Both the position numbers and the translations under genes were made by a program. The notes below the pieces were generated by a model. The model worked only from the letters and a program-made list of their open reading frames with translations. It was not told the origin of the DNA and searched no databases. Source: a virus. From it: DNA of 23,420 nt. The stretch lies in the IMG/VR virus record IMGVR_UViG_3300032093_000855, positions 1 to 23,420 of that record. One strand, written 5' to 3'. Every line of letters begins with the position of its first letter. The first letter of the stretch is position 1. Below are positions 1,962 through 23,215 of the stretch, piece after piece.

Positions 1962-2483
1962 TCAGTGCTCAACCGATCGCTGCAGCTCCCAGATTGAGAA
2001 TTGGTAGTCAGCAGCGGATTGTGACACGACTGAGAAGTCGAGCACCGTGACGCCGTATGATGCCAGCTCGGTGCGGATCCGATTGATGACACGCTTCCGC
2101 GACCGCACCGACACCATTTCTTCGGCGTTCGGCGTCGAACGATAGACGTGTGAGAACGCGATCTCGCAGAAGTCTGCGATCGTCTCGTCGAAATCGTATG
2201 TGTTCGTGACCAGTTTCAACGCGTCCGCGATCTCGTAGACGACCTTCCACCGGAACGCGTGCGATCCAAACCGCTGCGCACGGGATGTTACTTGCCGGCG
2301 AACGTGAACCGACTCGTACTTCGCCATAAGCGGCCATTCGATGTACCACCCCGGGCGGAGCACGCGCGGAAATGCTCCGATGACGAACTCGACGCACCGC
2401 TCGTCCGTGCGGACGATCCGGGGCCTGGGGATGAAATCCGCGAGGGTGTGCAGCAGTTGGGCGAGCCACTCCCATTCCATCAT
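1962..2483 (-). CDS. SPFH/band-7 (stomatin-like) domain protein
   Basis: A 173-aa protein. After a short amphipathic N-terminal helix (MMEWEWLAQL...), the PRIVRTDERCVEFVIGAFPR segment, the VLRPGWYIEWPL segment and the alternating VHVRRQVTS strand match the start of the SPFH/band-7 fold of stomatins, prohibitins and HflK/C. Those proteins form membrane-associated oligomers. An EIADALKLVTNTYDFDETIAD stretch and a C-terminal RTELASYGVTVLDFSVV segment correspond to the rest of the domain. It is shorter than cellular family members and lacks a clear transmembrane helix and the long C-terminal coiled coil. The start ATG at 2483 overlaps the stop of the upstream gene (ATGA); an adjacent second ATG follows. 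It is the last gene of the late operon. A role in membrane organisation, host protease control or exclusion is speculative. Confidence 0.72.
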   Translation of the reverse strand: MMEWEWLAQLLHTLADFIPRPRIVRTDERCVEFVIGAFPRVLRPGWYIEWPLMAKYESVHVRRQVTSRAQRFGSHAFRWKVVYEIADALKLVTNTYDFDETIADFCEIAFSHVYRSTPNAEEMVSVRSRKRVINRIRTELASYGVTVLDFSVVSQSAADYQFSIWELQRSVEH

Positions 2484-2995
2484 TTCGGCCCCAGATCTGG
2501 CGGCCGGCACCCCGGCCCGCGGAGCGTCGCGGCGTTGAGCTGCGGCCACAGGGCTTCCGAGTGGATCGCGGCGAGCAAGCCCCACGCGGCGTGCGGCAGA
2601 TGATCCTCCGAGCGGTCGCCGGACAGGTACAGGTTCACGTGCCGCAGAGCGTGATTGAGCAGGTCCGCTACCGGCATGCCCTTTTCCCAGTTGAAATCCC
2701 CGTACTTCGCCGCCCCCTCCGCGCACGTGCGAGCCACGGCCTCCAGGCCGATGGGCGAGATCAGATCGTATCGGGTGGCCTCCGCGTCGCTCGACCGAAC
2801 GGCACCCGTAGCGAACCGCACAGTCGACCCTTCCTGCTCCTTCACGGTGTCTGCCTCCTGGTAGTGTCTGACCATGCCGATGAGGTGAATCACGTAGCCT
2901 GCCAGCGTTCCGCTCGTGCCGTGGTAGGCCCCGGAGAAGCGTCGAGCCCGCCGCTCGGCATCCCGCAGCTCGTCGTCCGTCAGCCAGTGGCTCAC
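2480..2995 (-). CDS. dATP/dGTP diphosphohydrolase-like protein (DUF5664 family)
   Basis: A 171-aa protein whose core (residues ~75-147) matches the phage family annotated as dATP/dGTP diphosphohydrolase domain proteins. It shows RYDLISPIGLEAVA, EGAAKYGDFNWEKG, NHALRHVNLYLSGD, then EDHLPHAAWGL. Acidic and histidine residues E85, E93, H115, H119, E130, D131, H132 and H135 sit on helices as in MazG-like all-alpha NTP pyrophosphohydrolases and could bind metal and nucleotide. Such enzymes would remove pyrophosphate from purine dNTPs, altering the nucleotide pool. The N-terminal ~70 residues are extra and unassigned. The start is GTG at 2995, overlapping the upstream metallophosphoesterase stop (GTGA), and its own stop overlaps the SPFH start. 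Family membership is fairly confident; substrate specificity is inferred. Confidence 0.8.
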   Translation of the reverse strand: MSHWLTDDELRDAERRARRFSGAYHGTSGTLAGYVIHLIGMVRHYQEADTVKEQEGSTVRFATGAVRSSDAEATRYDLISPIGLEAVARTCAEGAAKYGDFNWEKGMPVADLLNHALRHVNLYLSGDRSEDHLPHAAWGLLAAIHSEALWPQLNAATLRGPGCRPPDLGPK

Positions 2996-4008
2996 GACGT
3001 CCTCACCTTCCCGTTCGCGATTCGGAAATTGCTGACGTCGAACTGGCCGTCGGCATGCACTCGCACGGACGCGAAGCCGTGATTGAACTTGTTGATGCGG
3101 GCGTACTCCGGCCGGAGATCGCAGAGGCAGCCCGTGCTCCAGCAGAAAACTTCGCGGCCGAACATGTCAGGCTCGCAATGGGCGCTCGTGCGGTGGCCGT
3201 GGCCCTCGAGCACGGTGTGTTGCAGCCGGAGGAACGCCCCGCGGGCCTGGTTGACCGGGGCCGCGAACCCCTTGCCCTTCTCGTGCCCGTGGAGGATCGG
3301 CAGCTGGCCAGCCATGATCGGCCGCTGGTCGTCAACGTAGGCGATGCCGTGGTCCGCCATGTCTAGCCACTCGTCGAGGCCCGTCCGCTTGTCGTCGCTG
3401 ATTTCCGGGGCGTGCTGAAACAGCCAGTGGTCCCACCGCTCTTCGTGGTTCCCGGCCTTGAAGACGATCGGGATGGACTTGAACTGCCCGCGGATCCACG
3501 CGAGCATGTCGCGAGCGGCATCCACCTCCGCGGAGAACTTCCGCTTCTTGGGATTCTTCGTGTAGCGGCTGATCGCGTAGAAGTCGCACGTGTCGCCGTT
3601 GAGGACCAGGGCCTCGATTCTGTCGCCCCGCAGCTGGTCGACCGCAGCCCGGAGCGCCACCTCGTCGTGATAGGGCACGTGGATGTCCGACAGCACGCCG
3701 ACCGTGCCCGTGACGTCGAGCTCGTAGGGCTTCCAGTCGTCGGCCTTGCTAGGCGGCATCGCCGGGACGGCTCCGGCGGATCGCTTGGCCCGAGGGGTGA
3801 TCGTCGACATCCGGCCGCGACTGTACTGGCCGTTGACCCCCAGCTGCCTCCTGATTCGCGAGTAGGCCTGTTCCAGCGTGAGGGCCCCGTTGGCCTCCGC
3901 CTGGAGGCGACGGCCGAGCGTTTTGGCTGGGGCGTCAGGATGAGCCGCCACAAGCCGGCGGGCCATTGCCGTTATCGCGTCACCGCCGAGTTGTCCTTTG
4001 GTTGGCAT
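2992..4008 (-). CDS. Calcineurin-like metallophosphoesterase
   Basis: A 338-aa protein. All motifs of the metallophosphoesterase fold are present: DIH (D108, H110), GDTCD (D139), GNHEER (N187, H188), HGHE (H240, H242) and GHGH (H270, H272). These residues would hold a two-metal centre hydrolysing phosphomono- or diesters. Residues ~1-95 form a basic, helical N-terminal extension (RRLQAEANG, YSRIRRQLG) that could bind DNA. I chose ATG at 4008 because GAGGAGGG lies about 6 nt upstream; an upstream in-frame ATG at 4044 lacks a well-placed ribosome site. It overlaps the downstream diphosphohydrolase-like gene by GTGA, so the two may act together on nucleotides or DNA ends. Substrate unknown. Confidence 0.88.
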   Translation of the reverse strand: MPTKGQLGGDAITAMARRLVAAHPDAPAKTLGRRLQAEANGALTLEQAYSRIRRQLGVNGQYSRGRMSTITPRAKRSAGAVPAMPPSKADDWKPYELDVTGTVGVLSDIHVPYHDEVALRAAVDQLRGDRIEALVLNGDTCDFYAISRYTKNPKKRKFSAEVDAARDMLAWIRGQFKSIPIVFKAGNHEERWDHWLFQHAPEISDDKRTGLDEWLDMADHGIAYVDDQRPIMAGQLPILHGHEKGKGFAAPVNQARGAFLRLQHTVLEGHGHRTSAHCEPDMFGREVFCWSTGCLCDLRPEYARINKFNHGFASVRVHADGQFDVSNFRIANGKVRTS

Positions 4009-4050
4009 CCTTGCCCTCCTCATTGGTGTGTCAGTCCCCGACATAAAAAC

Positions 4051-13555: not shown

Positions 13556-14782
13556 TCAGGTCGCGGCCTTGGCCAGCCGACCCACGAACTCGGGGCCGTG
13601 GTTGCTGACGCCGAGCCGCGTGCTCGCCACGTAGAGCAGCTGGCGGCTGCGCACGAGCAGCTCGCGGGCCACGGTGATCTCGAGGCCGGTGTCCTTGATG
13701 CCCACCGCGGTGGACATCGAGAAGTCGCCGAAGAGGGCCAGCGTGTTCGCCGGCAGCCCCTTGACGATGTAGACCGGAGCCCCGTAGATCGTCGGAACCA
13801 CGCGGCCGCCGCCGACCACCATCGTGGTCTGCTGCGCTGCCCAGATCTTCATGAGATCCACGTAGCCGGCCTTCGAGCACACCCACGCGCCCGTGCCCAT
13901 GATCGACTCGTCGACCTTGCCGACGACGTCGGCGAGGTTGTTGGCGGTCGTCGAGGCGTTGGCCGCCACGGTGACGGTATTGCCCGCAGTCACCGCACCG
14001 GCGAGGCCGCCGATAGTCGGGTTGCTCGCGTTGCCGCCGAGCCAGACCGTGTCGATCCAGCGGGCGAGCCCGTAGGAGCACCGGTCGACGATCAGGCCGG
14101 CCACGTCGATCGGCGAATCCTCGACGAGCGAACGCGACACGGGGATCGAGGCACCACCCTCGTAGAGGGTCAGGTCGGCACCGCTGCTAGCGATGTCCTG
14201 GTCGGTGAAGGCGACGTTCTCGCCGGCGAACCCGAACGTCACGTCACCGCTCTTCGGCAGCGTGATCTTCTGGCCGGATGGTCGGAAGATGCTGGCCAGC
14301 TGCACACCAACCGACTGGTAGGAGAGCCGGTTCACGATGGCGTTGTAGAGCTCGCCCATGACGAAGTCGGCACCGTAGCCGGCGACCGTTTCGCCCATAG
14401 CACGCTTCTCGCCGGCGGCGATCGAACAGAGCAGACGGCCAGCGGCCTCCGCGATCTTCGGCGAGCGGAACGCCTTGACGCCTGCTCGGATGTCGGGCGC
14501 GGCGAAGCGGTCTTCCTTCTCGGCGTCGAACTGCCGCTCGACGTCCTCGCGAGACTTGTCCTCCGATCGCACCTTTCGCATGGCGGCCACCTGGGCGTCG
14601 AGATCCTCCTCGCGCTGCACTTCGGCGGTGATCTTGCCGGCCCGCTCCGTGGCGGCCTTCAGCCGGCCCTCGATGCTCTCGCGCTCGGCGTCATCCTTGG
14701 GCTCGAGCGAACGGAGCGCGGTGATTTCGTTTTCGACCGCGGCGCTCTCGTCGCGGAGAAGGCGGAGCTTCGGACTGGGCAT
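13556..14782 (-). CDS. Major capsid protein, HK97 fold, with N-terminal scaffolding domain
   Basis: A 408-aa protein. Residues ~1-75 form a charged coiled coil (AAVENEITALRSLEPKDDAE; RLKAATERAGKITAEV), the delta domain that acts as internal scaffold and is removed by the prohead protease. The mature domain starts around residues 95-125. It shows typical family segments: ELYNAIVNRLSYQSVGVQLA, ITLPKSGDVTFGFAGENVA, LTLYEGGASIPVSRSLVED, a central helix with SYGLARWIDTVWLGG, and DFSMSTAVGIKDTGLEITV near the end. Ribosome site GAGG is 5 nt before ATG. The leader carries a 23-bp element shared with the portal region. No obvious crosslinking pair can be judged from sequence. Confidence 0.93.
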   Translation of the reverse strand: MPSPKLRLLRDESAAVENEITALRSLEPKDDAERESIEGRLKAATERAGKITAEVQREEDLDAQVAAMRKVRSEDKSREDVERQFDAEKEDRFAAPDIRAGVKAFRSPKIAEAAGRLLCSIAAGEKRAMGETVAGYGADFVMGELYNAIVNRLSYQSVGVQLASIFRPSGQKITLPKSGDVTFGFAGENVAFTDQDIASSGADLTLYEGGASIPVSRSLVEDSPIDVAGLIVDRCSYGLARWIDTVWLGGNASNPTIGGLAGAVTAGNTVTVAANASTTANNLADVVGKVDESIMGTGAWVCSKAGYVDLMKIWAAQQTTMVVGGGRVVPTIYGAPVYIVKGLPANTLALFGDFSMSTAVGIKDTGLEITVARELLVRSRQLLYVASTRLGVSNHGPEFVGRLAKAAT

Positions 14783-15178: not shown

Positions 15179-15480
15179 GCCCGCTGCTCCCACCACCTTT
15201 GCACGAGGATCTCGACGATCTTGCCGATGGCCCAAAACAGGAGCATCGACAGCAGCGGCGATCCACAGCGGTCGCGGTAGACGAGCCGCACACGCTGCTC
15301 CCATCGCTCCCGCATGGCGGCGCTGTCGTGGCCGGCGAACAGGGATTCGCTGCCCTTCGGCGATTCACCTACGGCCGTCGCCACGATGGCGTCACACCGC
15401 TCCCGGCCGAGCATGGCCCGGCGCAGCGGATGAGCGGCGAGCGACCGCCAGACATGCTCCTCGAGGTCGGTCGTGCTCAT
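15175..15480 (-). CDS. Small C-terminally anchored membrane protein, unknown function
   Basis: A 101-aa protein with a charged N-terminal ~70 residues (TDLEEHVWRSLAAHPLRRAM; RERWEQRVRLVYRDR). A single hydrophobic helix near the C-terminus (SPLLSMLLFWAIGKIVEILV) is followed by a short basic-aromatic tail (QRWWEQRA). I chose ATG at 15480, which overlaps the upstream protease stop (ATGA). A longer in-frame start at 15519 would lie inside the protease gene. It is next to another membrane protein and between secreted proteases, suggesting a lysis or envelope role. Confidence 0.6.
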   Translation of the reverse strand: MSTTDLEEHVWRSLAAHPLRRAMLGRERCDAIVATAVGESPKGSESLFAGHDSAAMRERWEQRVRLVYRDRCGSPLLSMLLFWAIGKIVEILVQRWWEQRA

Positions 15481-16268
15481 CGCTTGGCGCACCTCCCGTC
15501 CGGGCAGTCTGTCGGCCACTTGGCCCGCGCGATGAGGGCACGGATCTCCGTGGCATCGCTGCCTGCGGCCACGGTTCCGTCAGAGCCGAACAGCACCGCG
15601 GCCAGCTCGCCGTTGGCGTTCAGGATCGGCCCGCCACTGTCGCCCTTCCGAGCATCGGCCCGCAGCTCGAGGATGTGGAAGGGGTGACGGGGGCCGAACG
15701 GGGAAAGCCGTTGGGTCATCGGCCCGGACTTTTCTCTGTAGGAGAACGGCGGCGGGCCGTATCCGGCGATCGTGAGCGTGTCGCCAGGGGCCGGTGGCCG
15801 CGCCGCGAGCCGCACCGGAGCCGCGTCGGGGGCAGCGGTCACGAGGGCCGCCAGGTCGAAGGCGTCGTCGCTCGCCACCACGCGAGCCGGGGCTGAGCTG
15901 CCGTCCGGCCAGCGGATCGTGATCGAGTCGCGATTGCCGCGCACCACGTGCCAGGCAGTGAGCACGAGGGCATGGCGGCCGCGAACATCGACGAGCACGC
16001 CCGAGCCGCAGTCAGTGCCAGGGCCGGATCCGCAGACCACGCGGGGCACTGCGGGCCGGGGACCGCCGGCGGCGGCAACAGGCGGCGAAGCCGGGGGCGC
16101 AGGCGGAGATTCAAGAGCGCCGGCACCATCGCAGAGCGGGCACACGAACCGCACCGGGCCGGGCCCGACGACGCGCTCGCCGTGGCAGTTGTCGCACGGG
16201 GCGGCCGCGGCGGTTGCGGCAAACAGGATCGCGAGCACGATAGCGTGGCGAAAAGAAGTCATGGTCAT
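15477..16268 (-). CDS. Secreted trypsin-like serine protease with zinc-ribbon motif
   Basis: A 263-aa protein. Residues ~1-23 form a signal peptide (hydrophobic AIVLAILFAATAAAA). Two CxxC knuckles follow (C25/C28 and C43/C46, CDNCHG and CPLCDG), like the DnaJ zinc ribbon, then a Pro/Ala linker (~52-75). The trypsin-like domain has H107 in TAWHVV, D138 in DDAFDLAAL and S211 in KGDSGGPI: a complete catalytic triad with the chymotrypsin/DegP-type order. Two further cysteine pairs (C79/C87, C254/C260) may form disulfides. The start ATG at 16268 overlaps the stop of the papain-like gene. A secreted active protease inside a capsid operon is unusual. It may act in the host periplasm during lysis or lysogeny, or be cargo. 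Confidence 0.82.
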   Translation of the reverse strand: MTMTSFRHAIVLAILFAATAAAAPCDNCHGERVVGPGPVRFVCPLCDGAGALESPPAPPASPPVAAAGGPRPAVPRVVCGSGPGTDCGSGVLVDVRGRHALVLTAWHVVRGNRDSITIRWPDGSSAPARVVASDDAFDLAALVTAAPDAAPVRLAARPPAPGDTLTIAGYGPPPFSYREKSGPMTQRLSPFGPRHPFHILELRADARKGDSGGPILNANGELAAVLFGSDGTVAAGSDATEIRALIARAKWPTDCPDGRCAKR

Positions 16269-17134
16269 CCGGCTGGCCGGCTCCAGTCGCCAGGCAGTGT
16301 CATGGACGCGATCGCAAACGACCCCTTCCACGCGGAGCGGGCCGTCCGCTCTGAGTCGTAGCGGATGATGTCGTACGAGTCGGGGTAGGCCATGAGCCGC
16401 TGGTCGGGGATCCACCGGGCCCACGGCACCGCGTGGCCATTGCGGCCAACGCTCACGACCAGGCCGTGAAGCACGAGACACACGGCCTGCTCGTAGCTCT
16501 CTGGGAAGATCACCTCGAGCGGGCGGAACTGACGGGCCGTTTCCTCCCAGCCCTCCGGGAACCGCGACACCGACACCCACGGGCCGCCGGCCTGGTTGAG
16601 TCCGCCCTTGCCGGACGTGCCCACGATCGCGTGGCGGAACTGGTAGTCGCGCGGCTGCACCGTCTCGGGGAGCATGCCGCGGCGGACGGCGATTTCGAGC
16701 ACGGCCCGGACATTCGCACCGCCCCACTTTCGAGGGTTGGCCTCCGCGTAGACGGAGAGCGGCGAGAGCCAGACGGAACCGAAGTCTTTCGATTCCTGAT
16801 AGCGGAAGTCTTTCTTCGGCCCACCGTAGTTCACGCCGCGCGCACGGTTGCGCGCGGCCTCCGCATTCGCCCGGAGACTGTGGCACGTGCATTCGTGCGT
16901 CGGATTCTGGTTGGTGAACCGGTCGATGAAGTTCATCCCCCACGATCCGGCCGCGTCGTTCTCGCGGGCCTTGGCCACCCAGTCGCGCGTCTCGATCCAG
17001 AGCGATTCGGGGAACTCGCGCGAGGCGTCGCCGCAGGCATCGCGGAGAGCGTCGGTCGTGTCCTCGGCCGCGAGCTCGGCCGGGTAGCCGTCGTGCTCGG
17101 CCGGAAAGACGTCGATGAGGGCAGGGTCGATCAC
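16265..17134 (-). CDS. Papain-like cysteine peptidase-fold protein, possible endolysin
   Basis: A 289-aa protein. The segment WGMNFIDRFTNQNPTHECTC followed by HSLRANAEAA corresponds to the active-site Gln-Cys helix of C1-type peptidases (Q76 as oxyanion residue, C84 or C82 as nucleophile). HGLVVSVGRNGHAVPWARWI supplies the catalytic His (H234), and PDSYDII may supply the Asn/Asp side. No signal peptide or prodomain is seen. It is translated from GTG at 17134, overlapping the stop of the gene before it. Phage papain-fold enzymes often cleave peptidoglycan peptides (CHAP, NlpC). No other lysis enzyme is visible in the window, so an endolysin function is possible. It could instead process structural proteins. 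Fold call moderate, role uncertain. Confidence 0.6.
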   Translation of the reverse strand: MIDPALIDVFPAEHDGYPAELAAEDTTDALRDACGDASREFPESLWIETRDWVAKARENDAAGSWGMNFIDRFTNQNPTHECTCHSLRANAEAARNRARGVNYGGPKKDFRYQESKDFGSVWLSPLSVYAEANPRKWGGANVRAVLEIAVRRGMLPETVQPRDYQFRHAIVGTSGKGGLNQAGGPWVSVSRFPEGWEETARQFRPLEVIFPESYEQAVCLVLHGLVVSVGRNGHAVPWARWIPDQRLMAYPDSYDIIRYDSERTARSAWKGSFAIASMTLPGDWSRPAG

Positions 17135-17508
17135 GGAACGGCCTCCATCACAGCGGCTTCGCTCGCAGGGGCAGGCGTCACCCGGATCACCTGTCCACCG
17201 GCCAGAGCCACGACGGCGGGCAGCCCGGCCTTGCGTGCCGCCTCCAGGGCCAGCCGATACTGGGCAGGAATCTCGCCGTCGCCGTTGGTCGTGTCGTCCT
17301 CGAGCAGGGTGGCCACGATCTTCCGCTCCCGGTTGAGCCGGTTGATCGCCACCGTGACGTAGGCCGGGATCGCGCTGTCGTCCTTTTCGTAGACGTAGAC
17401 GGCGGCCGTTGCCGTCGAAAGCGTCTGCGGATTCTCGGCGCGGCAGCCATCCACACGCGGCAGCGTGAGCAGGAGCAGGCCAGCGACGATGAAGGCAAAC
17501 GGCCTCAC
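17131..17508 (-). CDS. Exported small protein, possibly thioredoxin-fold without CxxC
   Basis: A 125-aa protein with a signal peptide (MRPFAFIVAGLLLLTLPRVDGC). The sequence VDGC at the end of the hydrophobic run could be a weak lipobox, giving a lipoprotein. The body shows a strand (AAVYVYEKDD), a helix, then IVATLLEDDT with DGEIPAQYRLALEAARKAG and a GLPAVVALAGGQVIRV strand pair. That resembles the thioredoxin-fold cis-Pro region but lacks CxxC, so no redox activity is expected. The start is GTG at 17508 within the overlap with the upstream gene (GTGA). Fold is tentative and function unknown. Confidence 0.55.
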   Translation of the reverse strand: MRPFAFIVAGLLLLTLPRVDGCRAENPQTLSTATAAVYVYEKDDSAIPAYVTVAINRLNRERKIVATLLEDDTTNGDGEIPAQYRLALEAARKAGLPAVVALAGGQVIRVTPAPASEAAVMEAVP

Positions 17509-17994: not shown

Positions 17995-18366
17995 TCACAC
18001 CCTCACGAGCGGCAGTAGCTGCTCCACGGCACCGCTCGCGATCGCGAGCACGAGCGACCGAACGGCCGGCCGCACGATCAGCCACAGCGGCCACATGGCC
18101 GCCGGCACGGCCTTGTCGGCCACCGCGTCGAAGAGACTTCCGACAGCCTCCAGAGCCAGCGTCTTTTTTTCCGGGCCCGTCATCGTGCTCACGCGGTCGA
18201 GTCCGCCGACGACCAGGCGGAGCAGGGCAAGCATGAGATCGCCGAACTCGGCCCACGTCAGGCCGTCGACTGCGGCCGATCGGGCCGTCGAGACGAATGC
18301 GTGAATCTTTGACAGCAAGCCGCCGTCGAGGTTCGTGGCCGCGGCCACTGGATCAGACGAGATCAT
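17995..18366 (-). CDS. Helical, partly hydrophobic protein, unknown function
   Basis: A 123-aa protein. The middle holds LTWAEFGDLMLALLRLVVGGLDRV followed by TGPEKKTLALEAVGSLFDAVADKA. The C-terminal third is hydrophobic (AAMWPLWLIVRPAVRSLVLAIASG). This may be an amphipathic or membrane-associated helix bundle. Its ATG overlaps the stop of the prohead protease-HAD gene (ATGA), so it is the first gene of the block separating protease from capsid. No family recognised; membrane lytic or regulatory roles are both possible. Confidence 0.58.
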   Translation of the reverse strand: MISSDPVAAATNLDGGLLSKIHAFVSTARSAAVDGLTWAEFGDLMLALLRLVVGGLDRVSTMTGPEKKTLALEAVGSLFDAVADKAVPAAMWPLWLIVRPAVRSLVLAIASGAVEQLLPLVRV

Positions 18367-19376
18367 TTCGCCACCTCCGTTGACGCAAGCGCCGCCCGCA
18401 TCCGGGCGGAGGCCGCCGCAGCGGCAGCCCGAGCCCCGGCGAGCGTGGAAACCTTGACGGCACGCGAGCCCTCCGCCGTGGTTGCACTTCGCTCCGGAAT
18501 CCCCTCGGGGTAGTCATCGATCCAGACGTCGACGGTGAGGCCGGCGGCTGCTGCGGCCGACCGTTTTTGCTGGTCCCGCCCACACAGCAGCACGCCGGCC
18601 AGCTCGTCATGGAGATCGCCGAAAGCCTGCCGCAGGACGGCCCGGTTTTCCTCCGTGTCGTCGCGGCGGGTGATGCACACCACGCGGTTGCCACGGGACT
18701 GCGCGTCGGTGACGAACGATCGCCACAGCCCGGGGGCCGCCGTGAACGTGCCGTCGAAGTCGAGAGAGATCGTCAGGCCGCGAGACTCTGACCGGTGGGC
18801 CATCACGCTCCGGGCCTGCTTCCAGAGCGGGAGCGACCTGATTCCGGCCGTGCTCTGCGGGTAGGCCGGGTAGGTCACGGCAGAGATGTCGTACAGGCCG
18901 CTGGCACGGAACACGGTCCGGATCACGTTGCCCTTCTCGTCCTCGGTCCATGTTTCCCCGTCGGGTGCGGCCGTGAACGCGAAGCTCGCGCCGGTGATCG
19001 TGCGATCGTCCACGAGCATCGCGAGATCGCGGCCGTGGGTCGTTTGGAGCGGGCGATGGATGTATTCCAGGCCCTTCAGCGCTTTCCGCAGTTCGAGCCG
19101 GCCGTTCGTAGTGCGACCGGTGATGAGGTGCGAGATGTGGTCAGTCAGGAACGGCACGTCGATCTTGCCGCGCGGGTCGTTCGCCTTGCGGTCGACAAGG
19201 CCGTCGAAGGCCGTGGGCGCGAACTTCTCGCGGAAGCCTCCAAGATCTACGGAGAACGAATCCCACGGCGGCGAGATTCCGGTGATCACTGGGGGCTCGC
19301 CGTCGCGAGTCTGGACGGTGATCGCGTCCGGGTATTCGGCCGTCATGAGGTAACGTCGCTCGATCGCCGTGGTCAT
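18363..19376 (-). CDS. Prohead maturation protease fused to a HAD-like phosphatase domain
   Basis: A 337-aa protein. Residues ~1-185 are the HK97 gp4/U35-type prohead protease. SFSVDLGGFREKFAPTAFDG is the typical early segment. H80 in FLTDHISHLITGR, S131 in ITGASFAF and the YDISAVTYPAYPQS motif at ~162-175 mark the catalytic core. It would cleave the scaffolding domain from the capsid protein. Residues ~200-295 form a second domain with all four HAD motifs: DFDGT (D206, D208), CITRRDD (T236), K271 in QQKRSAAAA, and WIDDYP (D287, D288). An Ala-rich helical tail (~305-337) follows. An internal ATG at 18803 (residue 192) with GGAG just upstream might also make the HAD part separately. ATG overlaps the portal stop. 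The fusion is unusual and its purpose unknown. Confidence 0.85.
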   Translation of the reverse strand: MTTAIERRYLMTAEYPDAITVQTRDGEPPVITGISPPWDSFSVDLGGFREKFAPTAFDGLVDRKANDPRGKIDVPFLTDHISHLITGRTTNGRLELRKALKGLEYIHRPLQTTHGRDLAMLVDDRTITGASFAFTAAPDGETWTEDEKGNVIRTVFRASGLYDISAVTYPAYPQSTAGIRSLPLWKQARSVMAHRSESRGLTISLDFDGTFTAAPGLWRSFVTDAQSRGNRVVCITRRDDTEENRAVLRQAFGDLHDELAGVLLCGRDQQKRSAAAAAGLTVDVWIDDYPEGIPERSATTAEGSRAVKVSTLAGARAAAAAASARMRAALASTEVAK

Positions 19377-20998
19377 TGGCTTTCCCCTGTGGAATCCGTG
19401 GAGAGTGGTGTGGCCGACAACTCTGAGGTCAGCTTGCCGACGGTGAACTCGGTCGGCTCGTCGTTCAGGTAGACGCGGATGAGGGCCGCGGGCTGCTCCG
19501 GCGTGGCCTCGATCGCGAACGGCGATCCCTCGACGCCGAGCGTCCCGGACGTCATGAGATGCTCGATCACGCCGTCGGCATCGTCCCAGTACACACGCTG
19601 GCCGACTGTGAAGCCGCCGGCCGCGGGCACGCTCTCGCCCTGGCTGTTGTCAGCGCCGCCCGGCACCGGATCGGCGGCAGCCCCGGCGGGGGCCTTTTGC
19701 GACTGGTTTGCCGCCATCTGGAGCGTCGAGAATCCAAGCTGCAGGAACGTCTTGTCGGCCTCCGGCTCTTCGAGCAGCGGCAAATCCTCGAGGTCGCGAA
19801 TCTCGTTCGGCGTGATGGCCGACATGGCGAAGAGCGCCCGATACAGGTTCGCCCGCGCGACCGAATCGCCGCGGAGCAGCGCGCGGTTGTCGAGTTGGAA
19901 GAACGTGTTCTCGCCGTAGGTGTCATTCAGCCACAGATTGACGGCACCCTCGAACCGCTTCTGCCACGGCAGCAGACACCACACCTGCGCCGCGAGGTTG
20001 TCGGCCTCGGGGCTGCCATACCGCTGGGCCTTCGCATCGCCGACGAGTGAGGCCGGCACGCCCCAGTGGCTGCACACCTCTGGCAGGATGGATTCGCGGA
20101 GCTGCTGATACTGGCTCTGCTCCATCGTGTTGGACTGCATCGGCACGAGCTTGTCGCCGTTGGTCATCACGGCCGGCACGCCGCGATTCTCGCCGCCGTA
20201 GAGGTCGCGGAACTCGTTGCGGTAGCGGGCGGCCGTCTGATCGTCGAGCCGCTTGGCCGTCTCAATCACGAAGTCGGGGCGGGCCCCGTTCTTCCAGTGA
20301 GCCATCGCAGCCGTGTCCAGCTCGCGAGCCAGACTGATCGCGGTCGAGAGGGTGTCGGTGGCCGGGGTGCCGGTGATGCCGTTGTCGCCGAGCCAACGGA
20401 AGTGAAGGACTTGACTCTGCTCCAGACGAGACCACCGGCCCTTTTCGTCAAACCATTCGTAGGCCAGCGTGTAGTCGTCGAGCTGCGCGGTCCGCATGCG
20501 GCGCGGATGCAGCGGGATCAGGTGTGTCATCGCGCCCCGCGCACCCGACACGACGCGAGCGAAACCGCCGCCGTGGAGCGCAGTCCAGTAACCCTGGAGC
20601 GTCCAGAAATCAAACGGGCTCTGCCAAGGGTTTGGCCGCACGCGGAGAGCCGTGACGCATTGCCGGTTGACGCTCGTGGCTGGATCGCCAAAGCCCTGCA
20701 CCGCGTCGAGGGTCTTCCCGCCGAGCCGAACCTTCAGCCGCGGCGACATGCACCCGATCGCCTGCGCGATGAATCGGCACACCGCGAACACACTGGACAC
20801 CCGCACGGCAACGTCGGGATGCACGCGGCGATGGGCCGGCGTGCCCCACGCCATTGGATCGAGCAGCGTGCTCGTGGCGATCGCAGAGCGCACGCCGCCG
20901 CGCGACGGCCTCCGCGAGGCCGGGCGTTCGGAACTCTTCGCCCGCCGGGGGGCCGCTTTGCTGGCGCGTGCCATGCGGCCATCGTTCCAAACGGCCAC
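19373..20998 (-). CDS. Phage portal protein (HK97 family) with C-terminal extension
   Basis: A 541-aa protein. It forms the dodecameric ring through which DNA enters and leaves the capsid. Diagnostic segments are RVSSVFAVCRFIAQAIGCMSPRL, LRVRPNPWQSPFDFWTLQGYW, IPLHPRRM, VLHFRW, GVPAVMTNGDKLVPM, QQLRESILPEVCSHWGVPAS and NEIRDLEDLPLLEEPEADK. The first ~45 residues are basic and Ser/Ala-rich. After a Pro/Gly/Ala linker (~437-462) a separate 79-residue domain (~463-541, FTVGQRVYWDDADGVIEHL) looks like a beta-barrel of SH3 type and is not part of the minimal family. Start is uncertain: GTG at 20998 has AGGG at 8 nt, while ATG at 20974 is also possible and would leave the 23-bp element wholly intergenic. 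The stop overlaps the protease start. Confidence 0.92.
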   Translation of the reverse strand: MAVWNDGRMARASKAAPRRAKSSERPASRRPSRGGVRSAIATSTLLDPMAWGTPAHRRVHPDVAVRVSSVFAVCRFIAQAIGCMSPRLKVRLGGKTLDAVQGFGDPATSVNRQCVTALRVRPNPWQSPFDFWTLQGYWTALHGGGFARVVSGARGAMTHLIPLHPRRMRTAQLDDYTLAYEWFDEKGRWSRLEQSQVLHFRWLGDNGITGTPATDTLSTAISLARELDTAAMAHWKNGARPDFVIETAKRLDDQTAARYRNEFRDLYGGENRGVPAVMTNGDKLVPMQSNTMEQSQYQQLRESILPEVCSHWGVPASLVGDAKAQRYGSPEADNLAAQVWCLLPWQKRFEGAVNLWLNDTYGENTFFQLDNRALLRGDSVARANLYRALFAMSAITPNEIRDLEDLPLLEEPEADKTFLQLGFSTLQMAANQSQKAPAGAAADPVPGGADNSQGESVPAAGGFTVGQRVYWDDADGVIEHLMTSGTLGVEGSPFAIEATPEQPAALIRVYLNDEPTEFTVGKLTSELSATPLSTDSTGESQ

Positions 20999-21018: not shown

Positions 21019-22662
21019 TCACCAAAGACGCTGCAGGAAGGGGCCGGAGTCTGGCCGTTCCGAAAGTTCCGCGTCTTTTTCCATGGCGGCCGCGAACGCG
21101 TTGACGGCTGCCACGATCCCGTCGATCTTCTCGGGGCTCTTGTCCTTGTCTGGCTTGATCATGCCCGTGGAGTCTTCGACCCACACGAGATTGTTCGCGT
21201 TGAACAGCAGGATCGGGGATTCGTAGCCGAACTGCCCCTCGACGACACAACCCTCCAGCATCTTTGCCGGGGCGTTCATCACCGTGGTGCTCGGCCGCAC
21301 CGCCTTCAGGTCGATCGACTCTTCCTCGAGCATCGACGCGATCGGGCCGATCTGCCACGGGTCGGCACCGACGAGGGCGATTCTGTTTTGCCGGTCGAAG
21401 TCCGCGATGTCTTTGGCGACAACCTTGTGATTCAGCCGCGCCCCCGGCGTGACCGTCAGCCAGCCCTCGCGGGCCCACGTCGAATACGGAATGTTGTCCT
21501 TCGTCTCGCGCTCGCGGACGGTTTCCTCGGGCACCCAGTATTTCATGACGGCGTAGTAGGAGCCGTCGGCCAACTTGAACAGGAAGCACGCCGCTGTCAT
21601 GTCGAGATTGCTGGCCACGTCGATCCCGCAGACGCACGTGAGGCCCGCCAGGTCTGGCCGCTCCTTCCGGCAGTTGGAGAAGTGCTCGCCCGGGAAGGCA
21701 CGGTTGTCGGGAGCCGTCCACACGTTGAGCGAATAACGCAGCCACTTCGAGAATTTCCGTGGATGGGTAAGCGCGTCCTCGTAGTCAGAGCGGAACTCGT
21801 CTTCGGTGAAGGCCGTGCCCATTGCCGGGTTGGCCTTCGCCCACGTGGCCGGATCGTGCGGATCGTCGGCTTTCGGATCGGCCCCGAAGATCACGCCGAG
21901 AAGGCCCGTGTTGACCGACGGGTCTTTGATCGCCAGCTCCGTCGCCTCCCACCACTCCCAGCCGATGCCGTTGCGGTTGTCGCCGGCCGTCGAGATCGAT
22001 CCGATGATCGCGTTCGGGATGCCGCGCGTGGCGTACATGATGGTGTCGACCAGGTCGGGCTTCTTGAAACTGTGGATCTCGTCGAGCAGGACCAGGCCGT
22101 TGATGCCCTCTGAGACTTTCGCGTCGGCAGACAAGCAGCGAATTTCCTTGCCGTTCCGCTTGTTGCGGATCAGGTACTTGTGGTCGACGACGTCGAACAC
22201 TGGCTCGAGGATGGGCGACGCCTGGATCGAATCTCGCACCATCCGCCACATGGTGCGGGCCTGATCCTTCACGTTCGCCGCGAGGAAGACGTCCATGCCG
22301 GCCACGGTGTTCGCGTATTGGACGATCTGCGAGCAGCTCGTGGTCTTCCGGTTTTTCTTCGGCACGAACACGGAGAACCGGCGAAACCGGAGACGGCCAT
22401 TCGGGCGACGCCAGCCGAACAGCGGGTAGAGCACGCGATCACGGAACCACGGGATCGGCGAGACCCGGACGATCTCGCCGCCCTCCGCCCGGTGACGGCA
22501 GCACTTCTCGATGAACCGCCGCGGCTTGTCAGCCTCCTCCGCGCTCCACACAAAGCCCGGCACGTACTCGGGCCGCGAGGTCGGGTCGACGAAGAGGGAC
22601 TCCGGCGGCGGGCCGTAGTCCGGCTCAGCCGAACTCGGCGAGCGGGTCTTGCTCTTCCTCAT
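21019..22662 (-). CDS. terL: Terminase large subunit
   Basis: A 547-aa DNA-packaging motor. The ATPase domain has a Walker A variant PKKNRKTT (101-108), an adjacent VFLAANVKDQARTMW motif, Walker B VLLDEIH (191-197, D194/E195) and the coupling motif SISTAGDN (~222-229). The nuclease domain has a first catalytic aspartate D348 in CGIDVASNLD and D434 in LVGADPW, typical of the RNase H-like fold that cuts concatemers. The order agrees with the HK97-like Terminase_1 family (full length about 550). ATG at 22662 is preceded by GGAG at 7 nt, and the gene begins inside the last codons of the small terminase (38-nt overlap). Confidence 0.95.
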   Translation of the reverse strand: MRKSKTRSPSSAEPDYGPPPESLFVDPTSRPEYVPGFVWSAEEADKPRRFIEKCCRHRAEGGEIVRVSPIPWFRDRVLYPLFGWRRPNGRLRFRRFSVFVPKKNRKTTSCSQIVQYANTVAGMDVFLAANVKDQARTMWRMVRDSIQASPILEPVFDVVDHKYLIRNKRNGKEIRCLSADAKVSEGINGLVLLDEIHSFKKPDLVDTIMYATRGIPNAIIGSISTAGDNRNGIGWEWWEATELAIKDPSVNTGLLGVIFGADPKADDPHDPATWAKANPAMGTAFTEDEFRSDYEDALTHPRKFSKWLRYSLNVWTAPDNRAFPGEHFSNCRKERPDLAGLTCVCGIDVASNLDMTAACFLFKLADGSYYAVMKYWVPEETVRERETKDNIPYSTWAREGWLTVTPGARLNHKVVAKDIADFDRQNRIALVGADPWQIGPIASMLEEESIDLKAVRPSTTVMNAPAKMLEGCVVEGQFGYESPILLFNANNLVWVEDSTGMIKPDKDKSPEKIDGIVAAVNAFAAAMEKDAELSERPDSGPFLQRLW

Positions 22663-23074
22663 CCTCGATCTCCGGGAGCCGGGCGGACGAAGCGGCCGTC
22701 AGGCCGAAGTCGCGAGCGAGACTCACCCAGTCGTTTCGTGCGGCACGGGCCAGCCTGGCGATCGGGTTGGCAACCGGGCCACGCTCCGTCCCGATCACGA
22801 ACCCCTCCCTGGCCAGCTGGCCGTCGAGCACCTCGAGCTCCGCGTGGAGCCGGCAGAGCAGGGCGAACGCGTCGGCACTCTCGGGCGTGAGACGACCAGA
22901 CTCGATCATCGCAGGGGCCAGCCGCTTCCACATTGCCGCGGCCGACTTGATTTTGGCGAGCCCGGTCGGCATGCGCACCGGGCCCGGATCCGTGCGGCGA
23001 GCAGCGCGCAGGGTGTTGCGGCCGTCCGCGGAACGCTGGCTCTTTGGGTCGGCGACGGGGCCTCGGGAACCCAT
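22625..23074 (-). CDS. terS: Terminase small subunit (P27 family)
   Basis: A 149-aa protein. The start MGSRGPVADPKSQRSADGRNT is the hallmark opening of P27-type small terminases. It is followed by WKRLAPAMIESGRLTPESADAFALLCRLHAELEVLDGQL, a GPVANPIARLARAARNDW segment and an acidic C-terminal tail (EIEDEEEQDPLAEFG) that probably contacts the large subunit. It would recognise the packaging site and load DNA onto the motor. I chose ATG at 23074 for the family start and GGAG 9 nt upstream; an in-frame ATG at 23110 is less consistent. Confidence 0.92.
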   Translation of the reverse strand: MGSRGPVADPKSQRSADGRNTLRAARRTDPGPVRMPTGLAKIKSAAAMWKRLAPAMIESGRLTPESADAFALLCRLHAELEVLDGQLAREGFVIGTERGPVANPIARLARAARNDWVSLARDFGLTAASSARLPEIEDEEEQDPLAEFG

Positions 23075-23215
23075 GGCTACTGTCTCCAAAAATGGGGCAA
23101 AACCCGACACAAACTCACGTTGAGGCAGCGTGGGGTCTTCCCTTGAAGGGTCGTTTTTTGGCGCGCCCCACCCCGGTTTGCGTCGTGCGCCGAGGTTTTT
23201 CGGGTGTCTTTCATC
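23075..23215. other. HNH-terminase intergenic region, candidate cos/packaging region
   Basis: A 141-nt non-coding gap, the longest in the late operon. It contains an odd-length palindrome CCCTTGAAGGG, an A/T-homopolymer run (TTTTTT) and the palindrome GGCGCGCC next to each other, and the small terminase ribosome site. In HK97-like cos phages with an HNH protein, cos sites commonly lie close to the terminase and HNH genes. No cos can be proven from sequence. Confidence 0.35.

Follow-up and report, generated by a model that had tools for sequence, protein, structure and literature searches.

Small enzymes fused to phage head proteins have been described before. NudE-type Nudix domains are joined to MuF, to the portal and to a capsid-processing serine peptidase, and 2H domains to MuF or the portal, and packaging and injection have been proposed for them (Iyer et al. 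2022, PMC9503650). In PAJU2 and Nocturne116, the prohead protease itself is fused to the capsid protein, with release by proteolysis proposed (PMC8306868). In procapsids of the HK97 type, the components that come in along with the capsid protein are the portal and the protease; the HK97 procapsid contains about 60 proteases and 12 portals, and that of D3 about 90 proteases, which are prominent in Prohead 1 and gone from purified Prohead 2 (PMC12749128).

Here we describe an HK97-family prohead protease (Peptidase_S78/U35, PF04586) that carries a putative phosphatase domain of the HAD superfamily, found in a stretch of 23,420 nucleotides of viral DNA, the whole of which we call the window. Like the Nudix and 2H fusions, it would place a small nucleotide/phosphate enzyme on the same classes of head protein, and it differs from them in the enzyme superfamily and in that a one-copy rule, pairs of cassettes and empty sites, and recombination at the junction could be documented. 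With the PAJU2 and Nocturne116 proteins it shares the in-frame fusion to a prohead protease, whereas the partner there is a capsid protein and no enzyme is involved. The HAD fusions follow the logic of the published Nudix and 2H fusions with another enzyme. Our literature search found no description of a HAD fused to a portal or prohead protease. What is new is therefore the HAD as the enzyme on these two proteins, together with unusually clean comparative evidence, and not the fusion idea itself, for which the Nudix and 2H domains are the published precedent (PMC9503650).

The fused gene and its neighbourhood

On the minus strand of the window, a single open frame runs from the ATG at 19376 to the stop at 18363 with zero internal stops, as the sequence-only reading had claimed. 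Its start overlaps the upstream portal gene by 4 bp, and more late genes follow downstream. The N-terminal part matched Peptidase_S78 at residues 22-178 (Pfam E 1.8e-25, 90.4 bits against a cut-off of 21), and the narrower NCBIfam model TIGR01543 gave 52 bits, under its cut-off of 59. Across a 31-row alignment with identity down to 50 %, residues H80, S131, D206, D208, T210, K271, D287 and D288 were invariant and residue 236 was T or S throughout, so that the residue numbers given in the sequence-only reading proved right; H80 and S131 are the conserved catalytic His and Ser of the protease. The AlphaFold2 model of the full fused protein had a mean pLDDT of 83.9. The head-gene neighbourhood of an S78/U35 protease, with terminase, portal, protease and HK97 capsid genes, was present by Pfam. 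The protein is thus like HK97 gp4 in its protease domain, its invariant His and Ser and the portal-protease-capsid order, and unlike it in the TIGR01543 score, in the other genes lying between protease and capsid gene, and in the HAD inserted before the C-terminal tail. The features are collected in Table 1.

Table 1 Features of the window discussed in the text.
Feature	Position	Strand	Basis
Fused gene: S78 prohead protease, HAD-fold domain and conserved C-terminal helix (337 aa)	18363..19376	minus	ORF, Pfam, PHROGs, alignment
S78 (U35) prohead protease domain, aa 20-178, with invariant H80 and S131	18843..19319	minus	PF04586, alignment
Connecting helix/linker, aa 179-198, site of the protease/HAD recombination breakpoints	18783..18842	minus	model helix 176-193, DNA identity profiles
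HAD-fold, phosphatase-like domain, aa 199-293 (D206xD208xT210, T236-x-R238, K271, D287 D288)	18498..18782	minus	PHROGs, fold, conservation
Low-confidence variable linker, aa 294-310	18447..18497	minus	pLDDT <50 at 297-310, alignment
Ala/Arg-rich C-terminal helix, aa 311-337, with a counterpart tail in HAD-less proteases	18366..18446	minus	model helix 312-336, HAD+/HAD- alignment
ATG within the frame (M192; GGAG 4 nt upstream), a proposed alternative start	18801..18803	minus	sequence
HK97-type portal protein without HAD	19373..20998	minus	PF04860 E 8.8e-63
HK97-fold major capsid protein with a long, helical N-terminus like a scaffold (delta) domain	13556..14782	minus	PF05065 E 3.8e-19, match from residue 139
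Large terminase	21019..22662	minus	Pfam
Small terminase	22625..23110	minus	Pfam

Between the protease and capsid genes (15477-17508, minus strand), the window encodes an unusual second protease within the head module, a serine peptidase of the trypsin-like type (PF13365, E 2.3e-18) that apparently has a signal peptide, and also a small protein whose start resembles a signal peptide. Farther away are an integrase (185-1069) and, at 2480-4044 (minus strand), two genes of nucleotide metabolism, a dATP/dGTP diphosphohydrolase (PF18909) that adjoins a calcineurin-like phosphoesterase (PF00149). Searches of the whole window found no second HAD.

A HAD-fold domain in the fused protein

Residues 199-311 matched the families phrog_4919 (E 2e-17, profile positions 8-99 of 126) and phrog_4256 (E 2.4e-16, positions 10-116 of 141), both listed in PHROGs as of unknown function. 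Since both profiles were covered nearly end to end, this region constitutes a whole additional domain. The four HAD motifs proposed earlier from the letters alone held up in 37 diverse rows comprising both types of fusion described below: DxD, K and DD (D206, D208, K271, D287 and D288 in the window) were invariant, and motif II was always S or T at the position of T236. The Arg of motif II, [ST]xR, was invariant in head-fused and standalone HADs alike.

Because Foldseek searches with the full-length two-domain model returned noise, we modelled the HAD domain separately (pLDDT 91, pTM 0.81). Structure prediction, which had been suggested as a check, gave a Rossmannoid HAD core at residues 202-286, with the order beta-alpha-beta-alpha-beta-alpha-beta and without an evident cap. 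Among the best fold matches in the PDB were several HADs, including the CopA P-domain (probability 0.99), T4 PNK phosphatase (0.94-0.97), KDN-9-P phosphatase (0.92) and YrbI, all weak with E values of at least 0.05, and KDN/KDO8P phosphatases scored similarly to T4 PNK phosphatase. In a viral structure library, matches reached down to E 1.9e-7 and included a 'HAD-like domain protein' of phage phiK7A1 (E 4.5e-5). By sequence, the region had no match in the PDB or NCBIfam. Because the PDB E values were weak, we rest the assignment on motifs, topology and viral HAD-like matches jointly, which together support membership of the HAD superfamily. For the described 'Swiss-army-knife' RNA-repair HADs (e.g. 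AUE22617.1, phage SP15), the search covered the first 50 kb of SP15, where no relative was found.

Standalone phage HADs of phrog_4919/4256, such as phiEco32 gp47, PVP-SE1 gp208 and a 'HAD-like domain protein' of Vibrio phage 1.015, share the domain type and the motifs DxDxT, [ST]xR, K and W[IV]DDxP, and differ in being free genes that lie mostly among early or nucleotide-metabolism genes. Contig scans seeded with standalone HADs likewise gave unfused ORFs. The relatives outside the fusion group are about 95-130 aa long and often lie among nucleotide-metabolism genes; those of cultured phages, with 105-136 aa, often have MazG, ribonucleotide reductase, thymidylate synthase or DNA polymerase as a neighbour. 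Foldseek also matched the window HAD to head proteases named 'XkdF' in the BFVD library (uncultured Caudovirales phages, probability 0.99-1.0, proteins of 301-531 aa; A0A6J7WLI9, A0A6J7WUA4, A0A6J7WEB6, A0A6J5NSI2 and A0A6J5N6Z6). This protease family is unrelated to S78, and judging from library names and structure matches these proteins are possibly a third type of fusion between a head protease and a HAD.

The catalytic residues of the HAD are under purifying selection. The median pairwise dN/dS of the domain was about 0.24, a rough value as many pairs were near saturation, and 0.13-0.15 between the window and its closest relatives.

A cassette swapped and lost as a unit

Viral contigs were scanned and gave 78 loci, about 70 of which had a complete open fusion, 50-94 % identical and from different metagenomes, so that the search for U35 and HAD in one protein, also suggested earlier, placed the architecture in independent viral contigs. 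The relatives L029, L039 and L059 were aberrant, through a protein shortened to 299 aa, a frameshift at the end or a stop inside the match. Of the GenBank phage records, 640 matched the fused protein, none of them over 80 % of its length. Environmental metagenomes thus often contain the fusion, whereas the collection of cultured phages that was searched does not. One copy lay in a 40-kb prophage contig of a Planctomycetaceae MAG. An integrase stands at one end of this contig, and close to the opposite end is a gene for an MFS-acyltransferase that is likely chromosomal. On the basis of this binning and the neighbouring gene, a Planctomycetota host is likely. A related prophage in a Planctomycetaceae MAG (L371/L372, JAIXPT010000413.1) carries a collagen-repeat protein and a YqaJ recombinase. 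In a survey of Planctomycetota genomes, the HAD occurred in only 2 of 392, once as a distant cellular protein. The few named sources point to freshwater as the origin of the fusion-bearing samples.

To see proteases irrespective of the HAD, a scan was seeded with the protease domain alone; it recovered 47 loci with the HAD and 19 without. One of the latter (L228) was left out because its contig stops inside a linker of the HAD type, and 18 intact HAD-less loci remained. In three of these, the protease was very close to that of the HAD-bearing L071/L072, with identities of 97 % (L224), 95 % (L225) and 96 % (L226). When aligned, proteases with and without the HAD ended in the same terminal helix (RRRWSYALTAAAARLVSARLKSNAPRIK), and at the position of the HAD the HAD-less forms had about 20 residues, ENLTxxELEQLxEQQAD. 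The other type of tail was kept in the same way, as AAAAAAVARMRAHAG in HAD-less L284 and AAAAAAVARMRLHAG in L048. The HAD-less relatives thus pass from protease to tail through about 20 residues, which fits the earlier statement that the ordinary family ends before the HAD.

In the protease tree, the state 'HAD on protease' changed five times, at least four of these changes being forced by well-supported branches, with gains and losses not told apart. Swapped pairs such as L018/L063 had HADs 98-100 % identical in DNA and most of the protease at 47-67 %, with the break at the junction, and values such as 100 % for the HAD against 51 % for the protease. Metagenome chimeras could mimic such breaks in single cases, and several pairs came from different samples. 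Protease codons ~38-58 (window ~19200-19265) showed 78-97 % DNA identity within swapped-pair proteases otherwise 50-70 % identical, perhaps another recombination point.

In a second Planctomycetota match (L081), the HAD lay outside the protease, in a frame resembling the C-terminus of a portal. A scan seeded with it gave 80 further loci, and about 60 loci had the HAD on the portal C-terminus. All eight representatives tested consisted of a portal (PF04860/phrog_12, with E 1e-85 to 1e-105 for PF04860), a linker that was usually Pro/Ala-rich, and a HAD of phrog_4919/4256. Some portal fusions carried extra domains beyond the HAD, namely a coiled coil in L164 and a TUDOR-like domain (PF11160) before or after the HAD (L143:3630-5801, L204:3162-5447, L209:1236-3509). 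The end of the window portal looks similar to this TUDOR-like region. In L185:1653-4640, the C-terminal region of the portal-HAD protein matched phrog_4529 (minor head protein and DNA pilot), which makes it a three-part head protein.

We then counted arrangements in the loci whose portal and protease genes were both complete and whose HADs differed in DNA: 59 had a plain portal with an S78-HAD, 35 a portal-HAD with a plain S78, and none had both. As all were selected for the HAD, the zero for 'both' is informative, while finding no locus with neither would say nothing. When whole contigs were searched, each of 25 HAD-bearing contigs proved to have exactly one HAD, and the 18 HAD-less contigs, the largest of 31.8 kb, had none; these counts refer to contigs, many of which are fragments with the rest of the genome possibly beyond them. 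The HAD is a cassette that moves and disappears as a whole, with at most one copy per genome tested. In a HAD tree that included standalone forms, the portal HADs formed one clade (100/100), and the order of the protease, portal and standalone groups was not settled, with long branches. For this reason we do not claim two independent fusions; as the two genes are neighbours, the HADs on portal and protease could go back to one simple history, or they could reflect two independent recruitments to the head.

The sequence-only reading had also proposed that a free HAD might be made from the internal ATG. The ATG and its GGAG exist and recur in the near relatives of the window. At the corresponding column, however, an ATG or GTG stood in 34 of 48 distinct relatives and no start codon in the other 14, so we rejected the internal start as a conserved feature, and the family does not in general make a HAD by separate translation.

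Proposed cargo of the head and competing explanations

The reading that fits best, and that we hold to be moderately probable, is that the HAD is an optional enzyme cassette, placed before the C-terminal helix of the protease, which travels as cargo of the head through its fusion to the protease or, in the other lineage, to the portal. The fusion probably serves to build the HAD into the virus head and would act as an address label: as the procapsid is assembled, the HAD would be taken into the head interior by the protease, present in tens of copies, or by the portal, present in 12, and prohead proteolysis could then free it. The HAD is most likely a monophosphatase for a nucleotide or nucleic-acid end, and it may be ejected with the DNA and act in the cell that has just been infected, or may act on DNA or nucleotides inside the head. 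The standalone HADs among nucleotide-metabolism genes suggest that head proteins acquired a phosphatase acting on nucleotides or nucleic acids. The placement of the HAD before an unchanged protease tail suggests that this tail must stay free, and the tail helix is perhaps an encapsidation signal. The main weakness of the cargo reading, by analogy with D3, is the difference in retention: as the D3 protease is absent from purified Prohead 2, a protease-borne HAD might miss the virion unless released and retained, whereas a portal-borne HAD would stay. More tentatively, the heads of planctomycete phages may offer two docking sites that can stand in for each other, one on the protease before its tail and one at the C-terminus of the portal. 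A single exchangeable phosphatase would use either site, travel in the capsid and reach the cell with the genome, where it might, for instance, remove a nucleotide alarm signal or repair nucleic-acid ends at the start of infection.

It is also conceivable, if rather unlikely, that the HAD acts during assembly like a polynucleotide phosphatase, trimming phosphates from DNA ends or nicks in the prohead or at the portal during packaging. In its favour, one of the closest solved folds is T4 PNK phosphatase, packaging takes place with both the portal and the protease there, and motif II keeps its Arg in head-fused and standalone forms; the matching Arg of T4 PNK belongs to the active site. KDN/KDO8P phosphatases nevertheless scored alike in the fold search, and the HAD is not needed for packaging, since relatives up to 97 % identical in the protease lack it and carry none elsewhere in their contigs of up to 31.8 kb. 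Quite improbable, in our view, is that the fusion just secures late co-expression and that the HAD is cut off or works as a cytoplasmic nucleotide phosphatase in the producing cell. The company of the standalone relatives (MazG, ribonucleotide reductase, thymidylate synthase) and the dATP/dGTP diphosphohydrolase of the window phage would agree with this, but co-expression would require neither the choice of only portal or protease nor the keeping of the protease tail behind the HAD, and the internal start is not conserved. A non-catalytic spacer or scaffold-like domain would suit the small, cap-less HAD attached to structural proteins; this is very improbable given the invariant DxD, K and DD and the constant S/T of motif II in both fusion types. 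The chance that two genes were joined by a sequencing or assembly error is negligible: metagenomic contigs can be chimeric and frames are disrupted near the end in a few relatives (L039, L059), but the ~70 open fusions in independent samples, the low dN/dS and the prophage copy rule it out.

The fusion is a family and not a one-off, with a sister arrangement on the portal. Related phages with and without the cassette, together with the portal-HAD lineage, make the question of head cargo directly testable, and they offer a hypothesis of function for two PHROG families now listed as unknown (4919 and 4256). If the cargo reading is true, a phosphatase would join the enzymes that phages may deliver with their DNA, and the fusion partners would be address tags, supplied by nature, with which enzymes could be directed into capsids of the HK97 type.
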